45,569 bases of DNA from an uncultured Hyphomicrobiales bacterium. Its GTDB lineage: Bacteria > Pseudomonadota > Alphaproteobacteria > Rhizobiales > Xanthobacteraceae. The stretch lies in contig CAIRGJ010000027.1 of assembly GCA_903878085.1 (NCBI GenBank), positions 1 to 45,569 on the forward strand. The letters are read 5' to 3'. Positions 26,552 to 29,205 of this stretch are shown piece after piece. Each line of letters starts with the position of its first letter. Position 1 is the first letter of the stretch. The notes under the pieces are model-generated. The model made no database searches. It saw only the letters and a program-made list of their open reading frames with translations, and was not told where the DNA came from. Both the position numbers and the translations under genes were made by a program.

Positions 26552-26615
26552 CAATCCCGCCCCTCTTGCTACCTGGGAGTGTAGCCCAAGTTGTGGAGAG
26601 GAGGCGTTTATATAC

Positions 26616-26643
26616 TTGACAAACCCCGAATCGGCGGTAGAAT
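26616..26643 (+). promoter_or_regulatory. Sigma-70-type promoter of the transposase gene
   Basis: TTGACA (26616-26621), 16-bp spacer, TAGAAT (26638-26643), 33 bp before the transposase ATG at 26677. A near-consensus pair in AT-richer DNA. Confidence 0.65.
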
Positions 26644-26676
26644 CGTGAATAAGCTGATTAAATAAGGCTTTTTCAC

Positions 26677-27615
26677 ATGTCGATGCTCTCAAAAGTCTAC
26701 TTTCAGAACGAGAAGGCGGCTTTCGCTCACCTTGAAAAAACCCTTTGGAATGAAGGGGTTATCTGCCCGCACTGCGGCTGCGTCGATAGCGCGCGTAGGT
26801 TGCAGGGCGTAAAAGGTAAGAACGGCAAGGTTCGTAACGGTTTGTGGAAGTGCTACGCGCGGGAATGCCGCAAGCAGTTCACGGTGCGGGTCGGCACGGT
26901 GTTCGAGTCGGCTCATATCCCGCTGCACAAGATGCTTCAGGCGGTTTACCTGATGTGCTCCAGCAAGAAGGGCATCAGCAGTCATCAGCTGCACCGCACG
27001 CTGGAGATCACTTACAAGTCGGCGTGGTTCTTGACCCATCGCATTCGCGAAGCAATGCGCGACGGCACGCTTGCCCCGATGGGTGGCGCTGGTGGCACCA
27101 TTGAAGCCGACGAGACGTTCATTGGCCGTCTAAAGGGCCAGCCGAAAGGCAAGTCGGGCTACGCACACAAGAACGTGGTTCTCACGTTGGTAGAGCGCGG
27201 CGGTTCGGCGCGTAGCTTCCATATCGACAATGCCAGCGTTAGCCAGATCGTCCCGATTGTTCGCCAGAACGTGCGCCGCGAAAGCACGCTGATGACCGAC
27301 GAGGCGCGGCACTACGTCGGCGTTGGCAAGGAATTTTCGGCGCACGGTGCTGTCGAGCATTCAGCCGATGAATACGTGCGCGGTGAAGTGCACACGAACA
27401 CGGTTGAAGGCTACTATTCAATTTTCAAGCGCGGCATGAAGGGCGTGTATCAGCACTGCTCTGAGAAGCACCTGCACCGCTATCTTGCCGAATTTGATTT
27501 CCGTTACAGCCATCGCATTGCGCGCGGCGTTGATGACAAGATGCGGGCTAGCCGTGCAATGAAGGGCATCGTCGGCAAGCGGCTAACGTATCGACAAGCT
27601 GACGAAGTACGTTAA
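26677..27615 (+). CDS. IS1595-family (ISXO2-like) transposase
   Basis: 312 residues. N-terminal zinc ribbon with C30PHC33 and C59..C64, then the DDE-type ISXO2 domain: ADETFIGRLKG near 146-156, TDEARHYVGVG near 209-219, and HTNTVEGYYSIFKRGMKGVY near 238-257, ending in LAEFDFRYSHR. All expected acidic residues appear present, so it could be active. I could not find convincing terminal inverted repeats or a target duplication, so the IS ends are not defined. It diverges from comM and is followed by a small-RNA candidate and a DUF3800 gene. Confidence 0.93.
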   Translation: MSMLSKVYFQNEKAAFAHLEKTLWNEGVICPHCGCVDSARRLQGVKGKNGKVRNGLWKCYARECRKQFTVRVGTVFESAHIPLHKMLQAVYLMCSSKKGISSHQLHRTLEITYKSAWFLTHRIREAMRDGTLAPMGGAGGTIEADETFIGRLKGQPKGKSGYAHKNVVLTLVERGGSARSFHIDNASVSQIVPIVRQNVRRESTLMTDEARHYVGVGKEFSAHGAVEHSADEYVRGEVHTNTVEGYYSIFKRGMKGVYQHCSEKHLHRYLAEFDFRYSHRIARGVDDKMRASRAMKGIVGKRLTYRQADEVR

Positions 27616-27661
27616 GCCAAAAGCGCAAAAAGCTTGATTCGATCAATGGGTTAGCAACCCC

Positions 27662-27690
27662 TTGATTATATTGGTTGAATCTGTTATATA
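27662..27690 (+). promoter_or_regulatory. Promoter of candidate small RNA
   Basis: TTGATT (27662-27667), 17-bp spacer, TATATA (27685-27690). The expected start is near 27697, just before two hairpins and a terminator. A GGGTT-AGC-AACCC hairpin (27648-27660) immediately upstream may end the transposase transcript. Confidence 0.6.
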
Positions 27691-27696
27691 AAGGGC

Positions 27697-27766
27697 AATC
27701 CAACGCAAAGTTGGAGGGACAACCGCAAGGTTGGAGCGGCCCCGTTTTACGGGGCCGTCTTTATTC
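27697..27766 (+). ncRNA. Candidate ~70-nt structured small RNA
   Basis: Three hairpins follow each other. Hairpin 1: TCCAAC, loop GCAAA, GTTGGA (27699-27715). Hairpin 2: CAACC, GCAA tetraloop of the GNRA class, GGTTG (27720-27733). Hairpin 3: an intrinsic terminator (27737-27757 and the T-rich tail). A promoter with 17-bp spacing is placed so that transcription would start at the foot of hairpin 1. The two similar GCAA-capped stems are joined by GGAGGGA. No ORF of its own explains this stretch. It is not matched here to any named RNA family; function unknown. Confidence 0.62.
27737..27766 (+). terminator. Intrinsic terminator (CGGCCCCG-TTTTA-CGGGGCCG, T-rich tail)
   Basis: Perfect 8-bp GC stem with a 5-nt loop, followed by TCTTTATT. 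It ends the candidate small RNA. Its right half also encodes the last codons of the convergent DUF3800 gene, whose TAA lies in the loop (27747-27749). Confidence 0.82.
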
Positions 27767-28559
27767 TGGGTCTCCAGATTCGACCGTATCCATCTATTTG
27801 TCCGTTCGTTTGCCGGTAGTATTTTTCATCTTCCATGATTGCGCAGATGGAAGAAACGAACCCGCGAGGTGCGGGAACGTCCGCATAGATGGACCTGCAG
27901 TGATCGAAGCTTGGCTTCGCAAGTAGGTCCGCTAACTGAAGGCCGGCGATATCGTCCTTCTTTGGTTTGATCTTGATTTCTTTCGACGTGAGGACGGACT
28001 GGAGTTCTGCGGCCTTCAAATCGAGGGTGCCATTCTGATAAACGCGTTCATATCGCGCGCTGAGTGCTCTATCAGGCTTAAGCCCGATAGCTTCTGCCAT
28101 TACGTCGCCAACACCCTTCCTTGATTTTAAGAAGTAGTAATACCGCTCAAGTGCATTCTGAATCAGAAGTAGATAAATTTCTTCGCGCCATTTCGGATAA
28201 CGAAAGTAAAAGGCGACTTTATCGATGCATACCGTGATGACGTGGTAATTGTGCTGCCTGTACATCTGAAGACAGTCCGCGTCCCATTTTCGCTTATTGT
28301 TGGTGTTGTCTAGTGCGGAAAACTTGCCCTCTTTGCCGAGAATAGCGCGCCGCTGAAGCACTGGTGGCTTGTTATTTTTGTTCAAGCCGAAGTGTTTGGA
28401 CCTGAGGTCGCGGAAGTTTGGAACGAAGGTGTGGTAGTAATGTCCCCATTCAAAGATGACGCCTGTAATGCTAGCGAAGCGCCGCTCATCGTCGTTTGTT
28501 GCGGCGTTATCGACTTCACCGGTATCGTCGATGAACATTCGGAAGCGGGTTGGCTTCAT
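27747..28559 (-). CDS. DUF3800 domain protein
   Basis: 270 residues. DUF3800 proteins are predicted to have an RNase H-like fold, and are often found near mobile elements and defence genes; no activity is established here. The N-terminal acid motif is MFIDDTGEVDN (near 8-18), and the C-terminal aspartate motif is DDIAGLQLADLLAKP (near 214-228). Between them is a helical region rich in tyrosine and lysine (YYYFLKSRKG). The coding sequence is clearly AT-richer than its neighbours, a sign of transfer. Its ATG overlaps, on the other strand, the ATG of the small gene at 28558. Its stop is inside the small-RNA terminator. Confidence 0.85.
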   Translation of the reverse strand: MKPTRFRMFIDDTGEVDNAATNDDERRFASITGVIFEWGHYYHTFVPNFRDLRSKHFGLNKNNKPPVLQRRAILGKEGKFSALDNTNNKRKWDADCLQMYRQHNYHVITVCIDKVAFYFRYPKWREEIYLLLIQNALERYYYFLKSRKGVGDVMAEAIGLKPDRALSARYERVYQNGTLDLKAAELQSVLTSKEIKIKPKKDDIAGLQLADLLAKPSFDHCRSIYADVPAPRGFVSSICAIMEDEKYYRQTNGQIDGYGRIWRPRIKTAP

Positions 28560-28755
28560 GGCTAAGAAATCTCAGATCGACAAATTCCGCGATGCGGCCA
28601 AGGCCGTCGAGGCGGACGATAACGAGGCGAATTTTGACGCCGCGCTGCGCAAGATCGCCAAAGGCGACCCGAGGGCGTTGGACGAGGTGGCCGAGAAGAT
28701 CGGCCAGAAGGACCCAAAGGCGGATTTTGTGCCACCTCGGAAGCCTCGTGGCTGA
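28558..28755 (+). CDS. Small charged hypothetical protein (65 aa)
   Basis: MAKKSQIDKFRDAAKAVEAD, then DAALRKIAKGDPRALDE and a PPRKPRG tail: a short, highly charged, helical protein. Short proteins of this make-up are common in Bradyrhizobium-type accessory regions, but no function is known. Its ATG (28558-28560) and the DUF3800 ATG (28557-28559, minus) overlap in a CATG, so the two genes diverge with no space for promoters between start codons; each promoter must lie within the other gene. The ribosome site is weak. Confidence 0.62.
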   Translation: MAKKSQIDKFRDAAKAVEADDNEANFDAALRKIAKGDPRALDEVAEKIGQKDPKADFVPPRKPRG

Positions 28756-28909
28756 CCGGCCCGATCTGGATGAACTGATCGCTCTGGGAATGCCTCTTTG
28801 GCGGGCGCTGGAGGTTTGGGCTACTTGGCCTTGGTCAAGTGATCCACAAGACGCGCCAGATTCCGATTTATCTGCCCTAGCTGATAGGCCGCGTACTCCG
28901 CTGCATTGA
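28748..28909 (+). CDS. Possible small protein (53 aa), coupled to the preceding gene
   Basis: A GTG-started frame overlapping the previous stop, with GGAAG 4 nt before the GTG. The beginning (VADRPDLDELIALGMPLWRA) looks protein-like, with acidic and aromatic residues, but the end overlaps the opposite-strand gene at 28821-29024 by 89 nt. It may be a real coupled gene or a chance frame. Confidence 0.3.
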   Translation: MADRPDLDELIALGMPLWRALEVWATWPWSSDPQDAPDSDLSALADRPRTPLH

Positions 28910-29024
28910 CCAACCTAGCTTCGGCCGGAGGCGTGTGTTCGGGCGTGTAGCCGGGGTTAAAGTCGCCCTCCATGATTGCCCTGCGGCGTTCAGCGAGGGC
29001 TTTGTTTCGCTCATCCATGTCCAT
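28821..29024 (-). CDS. Small hypothetical protein (67 aa)
   Basis: MDMDERNKALAERRRAIMEG, then a proline-rich GYTPEHTPPAEA segment and a helical tail (AAYQLGQINRNLARLVDHL). The AGGAG site 6 nt before the ATG is strong evidence of translation. No family recognised. It is part of the accessory block after the transposase. Confidence 0.6.
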   Translation of the reverse strand: MDMDERNKALAERRRAIMEGDFNPGYTPEHTPPAEARLVNAAEYAAYQLGQINRNLARLVDHLTKAK

Positions 29025-29205
29025 TGAAGTCTCCTAGTTGTAAGGCCCCCACTAGGAGTCAAATTACGCGCGTTACCGATTCGTCGCTGAGAACAAACCG
29101 AGTCCTCCACAGGGTTTGCAAAGTACACAATCGCCGGAGAGGAACGAGAACATTTGCAGAACAAAACGACTCAGTTATGGTCGGCCCATCAACAGGGATC
29201 GCGAC

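Follow-up and report, generated by a model that had tools for sequence, protein, structure and literature searches.

The DNA analysed here (the window) is a 45,569-nucleotide (nt) stretch from an uncultured Hyphomicrobiales bacterium (contig CAIRGJ010000027.1, assembly GCA_903878085.1), and it carries a mobile element of the IS1595 family. The element contains a transposase gene, a small structured RNA, a convergent gene for a DUF3800 protein and a small conserved gene. All features of IS1595 membership are present, namely zinc-ribbon and DDE domains in the transposase, inverted repeats and an 8-base-pair (bp) duplication. The inverted repeats together with the duplication, GGAGAGGA, set the bounds of the element at 2,533 bp. 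The RNA is cargo of this intact element, and "cargo RNA" was indeed the best of the roles proposed in the initial annotation of this DNA. It also seems to be a genuine partner of the DUF3800 protein that no catalogue lists.

The initial annotation had recognized a small transcription unit between the transposase and DUF3800 genes, and each of its parts (promoter, two stems and terminator) can be read directly in the sequence (Table 1). The RNA start (27697) is placed from the promoter position and a conserved AA. Both loops had been called GCAA-type; loop 2 is GCAA, while loop 1 is GCAAA (5 nt). The DUF3800 stop codon (27747-27749) lies inside the terminator loop and the 3' end of the RNA overlaps the last DUF3800 codons, as had been claimed, its final 20 nt being antisense to the 3' end of that gene. 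The stretch 27692-27766 (75 nt) folds at -36.7 kcal/mol (z-score -4.96), with none of 200 shuffled versions equally stable, and its terminator is the first entry in a terminator scan. No tandem repeats or repeat family were found in the RNA. The RNA had been described as lacking an open reading frame (ORF); a + strand ORF of 83 amino acids (aa) with a TTG start (27675-27926) does cross the region, and nothing found supports this ORF as a gene. The RNA region gives a single match in the host genome, and DNA similarity to it occurs in 2 of 150 related genomes, one of which is the window's own; the other, G040, matches through the promoter region. Sequences similar to the palindrome-like ATCAATGGGTTAGCAACCCCTTGAT are found upstream of several related RNAs. 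On the - strand, a promoter-like site (TTTATA-16-TATAAT, 27692-27665, 10 of 12 matches) occupies the same bases as the RNA promoter and would read back toward the transposase 3' end.

Table 1. Features of the RNA locus and of the element that carries it (L-numbers denote fetched related loci).
Feature	Position	Strand	Evidence or detail
Small structured RNA, predicted ~70 nt	27697..27766	+	AA, hairpin 1, GGGA, hairpin 2, terminator
Sigma-70-like promoter TTGATT-N17-TATATA	27662..27690	+	-35 27662-27667, -10 27685-27690
Palindrome-like ATCAATGGGTTAGCAACCCCTTGAT	27642..27666	.	Sequence and promoter list; right arm includes part of -35
Stem 1 TCCAAC/GTTGGA	27699-27715	+	Sequence
GGGA linker between hairpins	27716-27719	+	Sequence
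Stem 2 CAACC/GGTTG	27720-27733	+	Sequence
Terminator	27736-27758	+	10 pairs, 8 G-C; perfect pairing
DUF3800 protein, 270 aa, predicted RNase H-like fold	27747..28559	-	PF12686 E 5.5e-8; convergent with RNA
IS1595-family element, 2,533 bp, intact	26603..29135	.	Inverted-repeat alignment; similar ends in L036, L064, L074, L008, L012
Terminal inverted repeats	26603-26626 and 29112-29135	.	Inverted-repeat alignment
8-bp target-site duplication GGAGAGGA, left copy	26595..26602	.	Sequence
8-bp target-site duplication GGAGAGGA, right copy	29136..29143	.	Sequence
IS1595-family transposase, 312 aa	26677..27615	+	PF12762 E 1.6e-34, PF12760 E 2.5e-10; NF033547 191 bits, cut-off 75
Small conserved partner gene of transposase, MAKKSQ..., ~65 aa	28558..28755	+	Relatives in scanned sequences
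67-aa ORF within element	28821..29024	-	ORF list; without Pfam or NCBIfam match

Among the loci of related transposases (the best 80 of 525 relatives), the cargo slot varies and holds DUF3800, Panacea-type, methyltransferase or unassigned genes. DUF3800 is present in 27 of 83 cassettes, a count that includes the window and L002, of whose transposase only a C-terminal piece is left. A strict promoter, defined as TTGA, a 16-18-nt spacer and four of the six bases of TATATT, lies after the transposase gene in 22 of these 27 elements, compared with 6 of the 56 without a detectable DUF3800 gene; the 56 include L009, whose sequence ends before the gene, as well as L007 and L010, which by eye appear to be RNA-bearing. 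Two Rfam families are found at the same site as the window RNA, DUF3800-VIII in L009, L034, L041 and L045 and DUF3800-VII in L002 and L057. A convergent DUF3800 gene is seen in five of these six loci, the sequence of L009 stopping ~195 nt beyond the RNA. Around L088, L089 and L097-L102, ~1.5 kilobases (kb) of flanking DNA showed no IS1595 transposase, and L101 retains a relative of the small gene. Because the strict promoter accompanies DUF3800, and because DUF3800 genes without an IS1595 transposase in these flanks also have RNAs of the nearest type, the RNA unit is by these counts linked to DUF3800 rather than to the transposase, and the module is not tied to IS1595. The association with IS1595 and DUF3800 that had been suggested is present.

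The region antisense to DUF3800 3' ends is also unusual as a class. Over 47 loci, the 125 nt in question have a mean fold z-score of -2.44, against -0.85 at 90 control ORF ends, and z falls below -2 at 60% and 20% of them, respectively (Mann-Whitney p 2.6e-8). A promoter score of at least 8 is reached at 47 of 47 loci and 57 of 90 controls (p 8e-11), both p-values overstating independence since the loci are related; the controls are mechanical ORFs from the same loci, some perhaps not genes. The strict promoter is present in 36 of the 47. This set leaves out L001, L003 and L087 (window copies), L105 and L106 (scores identical to L104), L111 and L112 (same loci as L099 and L102) and L113-L115, L108 was missing from the profile list, and L034, L045 and L085 were retained despite sub-cut-off Pfam scores on the basis of clustering or a profile match. 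At the Rfam gathering score, a DUF3800-n family matches 5 of the 44 loci of this set that were scanned; the scan covered L002, L004-L084 and some of L088-L110, and left out L085, L086, L091, L095, L105, L106, L108 and L111-L115. The relatives therefore suggest that catalogued families account for few DUF3800-associated RNAs.

Several RNA types were seen among these relatives. A sister type in L088, L036, L064, L074 and L089 consists of a CCG..CGG hairpin, a GATGG/CCATC hairpin and a terminator, and has no Rfam match at the thresholds used. Two further hairpin-bearing types lie antisense to DUF3800 3' ends, one in L090 and L094 and the other in L104, L107, L109 and L110, again with no Rfam match at those sites.

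The window's own relatives are narrower. In a DUF3800 tree of 42 rows, from which five fragmentary proteins were omitted, the window falls in a 7-row clade with L097-L102 (support 97/95), nested in a 12-row clade (97/91) that adds L036, L064, L074, L088 and L089; by eye, DUF3800 clades appear to keep their own RNA types. The RNAs of L099-L102 consist of AA, a 6-bp stem with a 4-nt loop, GGGA, a 5-bp stem with a 4-nt loop and a terminator. The window RNA has the same layout, with loop 1 one nt longer and the link to the terminator slightly longer. Scanned with a pattern that was written after the window had been compared with L099, and that covers everything up to the terminator, the combination of AA, 6-bp stem, GGGA and 5-bp stem has a single site in the 45.6-kb window; across 628 kb from other loci it was seen in L099-L102 and two duplicates of these loci and nowhere else. 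With the leading AA dropped, the layout gives five chance sites, appears in 10 of 20,000 shuffled versions of the intergenic stretch and has no site in 559 kb of viral DNA. When viral contigs were scanned with a 14-base pattern, 66 stretches were returned, none with the layout; two of the 66 had weak DUF3800-profile matches (E 1.2e-4). With promoters chosen by script, all 11 relatives have 29 nt between the end of the -35 and the conserved AA. For the window, the script printed another promoter pair, tied at score 8 with TTGATT/TATATA, and the latter also gives 29 nt.

Compensating changes in homologues, which the initial annotation had proposed as a check, are seen in part: paired changes occur in both stems, with the register of the window read by eye and not confirmed by a covariance model. 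The 12 RNAs that we aligned by eye share element order and pairing, with both-sided changes at stem 1 pairs 2, 4 and 6 and stem 2 pairs 1, 3, 4 and 5; stem 1 pair 1 is unpaired in 5 of the 12, and two more cells are unpaired. With the window removed, stem 1 still shows both-sided changes at pairs 2 and 6, and stem 2 does so at pairs 3 and 4. In a window-free alignment of L097-L102 fitted to the covariance model R1, 98.1% of cells pair, a value that falls to 38-60% when the alignment is slid by 1 to 3 columns. This alignment has six both-sided cells (0 of 500 shuffles) and three pairs changed on both sides, a number that 113 of 500 shuffles reach; both counts reflect few independent events. DNA alignments of the window with L099-L102 that were made automatically put the hairpins in the wrong place and were excluded from the pair counts.

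Against this assignment, covariance models built without the window do not recover its RNA convincingly. R1, built from four sequences, does not report it when run over the whole window with default filters, and when confined to 201 nt scores it in register at 11.0 bits (E 0.00075); R2, built from six sequences, gives it 12.0 bits and rank 4 (E 0.18 across the window). R2 joins L064 to the L097-L102 type (29.8 bits, E 9.8e-6), and L036, L088 and L089 reach only 12.6-13.4 bits. A search of 248 family genomes with R1 returned the two seed genomes and three matches with no DUF3800 found nearby. As for the single sequence, a simple promoter scan does not list the + strand promoter, and the number of terminator-like sites overall is close to that expected (12, against 8.3 +/- 2.9 in shuffles), so that the evidence from it is suggestive and comparison is needed.

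Taken together, the window RNA belongs by position and build to the DUF3800-associated RNA group. Its membership of the L097-L102 family is probable but not certain, since over the window it does not reach significance with the window-free models. Neither this RNA, scanned in the whole window and in the local stretch, nor the homologous RNAs match any Rfam 15 model, and together with L097-L102 it looks like a further family absent from Rfam 15. The initial annotation was thus right that no catalogued family fits, but it missed the described DUF3800 RNA group and the presence of DUF3800-VII and -VIII at the same site in relatives. A match of Cis52_sRNA at the RNA is at chance level (18 bits, gathering score 56).

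The DUF3800 protein has a predicted RNase H-like fold in which the acidic active-site residues are present, and is a putative nuclease. The passages on DUF3800 in two papers (PMC10910872, PMC12669027) describe an RNase H fold for such proteins and an association with putative non-coding RNAs, and offer, for CRISPR-linked members, a guessed role in CRISPR interference or the handling of CRISPR RNAs. The window protein is divergent: with its own genome counted each time, matches were found in 5 of 397 genomes of the order, 5 of 385 of the class and 18 of 391 of the family. Elsewhere, the search returned one phage record and 10 plasmid records, all below 60% identity, and viral contigs held no relative. 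NCBIfam had no match for DUF3800 or either small ORF, and PADLOC none for the five proteins searched.

We consider it reasonably probable that the RNA and DUF3800 constitute an RNA-protein pair carried as cargo by the IS1595 element. The unit, its recurrence as a unit and the predicted fold are read from sequence, and the steps that would connect them we infer. The promoter right after the transposase would make an RNA of ~70 nt that ends at the terminator over the 3' end of the convergent DUF3800 gene. Once free, this RNA would be bound by DUF3800 as its dedicated partner, and the resulting ribonucleoprotein would act to the benefit of the element. Defence, addiction or competition between mobile elements may be its purpose, candidates suggested by its status as mobile cargo. 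The locus is small and complete, with promoter, RNA, terminator, protein and mapped element ends, and it makes the cellular role of DUF3800 and its RNAs testable.

An RNA antitoxin, which would bind and restrain a DUF3800 nuclease harmful when free and so stabilize the element, shares much of this evidence: the RNA has a separate promoter and is paired with one protein family, the setting is mobile and the predicted fold is nuclease-like. Type III toxin-antitoxin RNAs consist of tandem repeats and lie upstream of, and co-directional with, the toxin gene. The window system resembles them in combining a small RNA with a putative nuclease on mobile DNA, but its RNA is convergent with the protein gene and no tandem repeats were found in it, so that we regard an antitoxin as unlikely; fragmented DUF3800 genes, seen in L067, L091 and L103, prove little either way. 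The initial annotation had suggested that the RNA could regulate the transposase or DUF3800; that it does so by base pairing is quite improbable. Although it lies directly after the transposase and is antisense to the DUF3800 3' end over its last 20 nt, the predicted duplexes were no better than shuffles at four sites (of 300 shuffles each, 277 were as strong at the transposase start, 217 at the transposase 3' end, 201 at the small-gene start and 146 at the DUF3800 start). In addition, 50 of the 56 elements without DUF3800 also lack the strict promoter at that site, and related RNAs occur with no IS1595 transposase in the flanks fetched. Finally, a mere terminator for convergent genes with chance hairpins would suit the overlap with the DUF3800 stop, the non-significant covariance recovery and the unlisted promoter, but is highly improbable given that promoter, AA spacing and stem layout recur at related DUF3800 loci, that fold and promoter scores exceed those of controls and that Rfam families occupy the same site in relatives.

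The RNA promoter region of the window has two GANTC sites, the target of the cell-cycle methylase CcrM. There are 32 such sites in 22 RNA promoters within IS1595 elements (shuffles 5.4 +/- 2.1, maximum 12 in 500 shuffles) and 13 in 14 RNA promoters outside IS1595 (4.4 +/- 2.0, maximum 12). Counts were 49 in 82 regions upstream of the transposase (shuffles 26.1 +/- 5.0), 29 in 78 regions upstream of the small gene (36.3 +/- 5.7) and, within the transposase itself, 1 over 83 stretches (25.6 +/- 4.8). GANTC is thus enriched in the RNA promoters and to a lesser degree upstream of the transposase. The host has two matches above cut-off to the RAMA domain, a mark of CcrM-type enzymes, and among 14 control genomes only Caulobacter matched. 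A link between the GANTC-rich promoters and the methylase is possible; the enrichment is a lead only, as TTGATTC itself holds one site and the promoters are related. A broader picture can be entertained tentatively, in which DUF3800 proteins would be widespread RNA-dependent RNase H-fold nucleases, each clade relying on a quickly evolving small RNA of its own that serves as guide, activator or lock, while IS1595 elements would ship these ribonucleoprotein modules as exchangeable cargo with promoters tuned to the CcrM methylation cycle.

Of 87 sequences scanned, 80 have a relative of the small conserved gene of the element, the window or its copies making up three of the 80. The start codon of the small gene overlaps that of the divergent DUF3800 gene (CATG, 28557-28560), so that neither gene has an intergenic promoter. 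The 67-aa ORF was matched only in the window and its copies in a scan of related sequences. Three further, more distant transposases (39-56% identity) are present in the host genome. Related elements carry other RNAs. Three related IS1595 elements (L048:4737-4822, L069:4771-4857 and L078:4765-4851) have a transfer RNA (tRNA) whose anticodon, TTA, would read UAA, a stop codon. In each, the tRNA adjoins a protein of 136-146 aa from a single cluster, of which the L048 member was searched with Pfam and gave no match. After the transposase in other relatives lie a tRNA-Lys (TTT, L071:4740-4825) and a tRNA-His (GTG, L047:4089-4163), and the Rfam skipping-rope RNA is found ~0.5 kb beyond the small gene of a related element (L072:5515-5616).

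Among known systems, the TnpB proteins of IS200/IS605 and IS607, with their omega RNA (also called re-RNA), likewise combine a structured RNA carried on a transposon with a nuclease that has an RNase H-like fold. DUF3800, however, is not TnpB. The omega RNA of TnpB and IscB elements runs over the element end and takes its guide from flanking DNA; an end-derived guide of this kind was considered for the window and rejected, as its RNA is internal, ~1.1 and ~1.4 kb from the element ends, and cannot acquire a guide by crossing one. Among the papers searched, none contains both DUF3800 and IS1595, and, judged by titles, none on the window RNA among work on IS1595 with small RNAs or passenger genes. 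Further likenesses are the Rfam families DUF3800-VII (RF02967) and DUF3800-VIII (RF03075), which in six related loci are, like the window RNA, structured small RNAs just 3' of an IS1595 transposase, although their models do not match it. The DUF3800-associated RNA group of Weinberg et al. 2017 (doi 10.1093/nar/gkx699), for which PMC10910872 cites that work, has the same genomic association and is the same kind of object. Structured RNAs next to DUF3800 are already known as a group.
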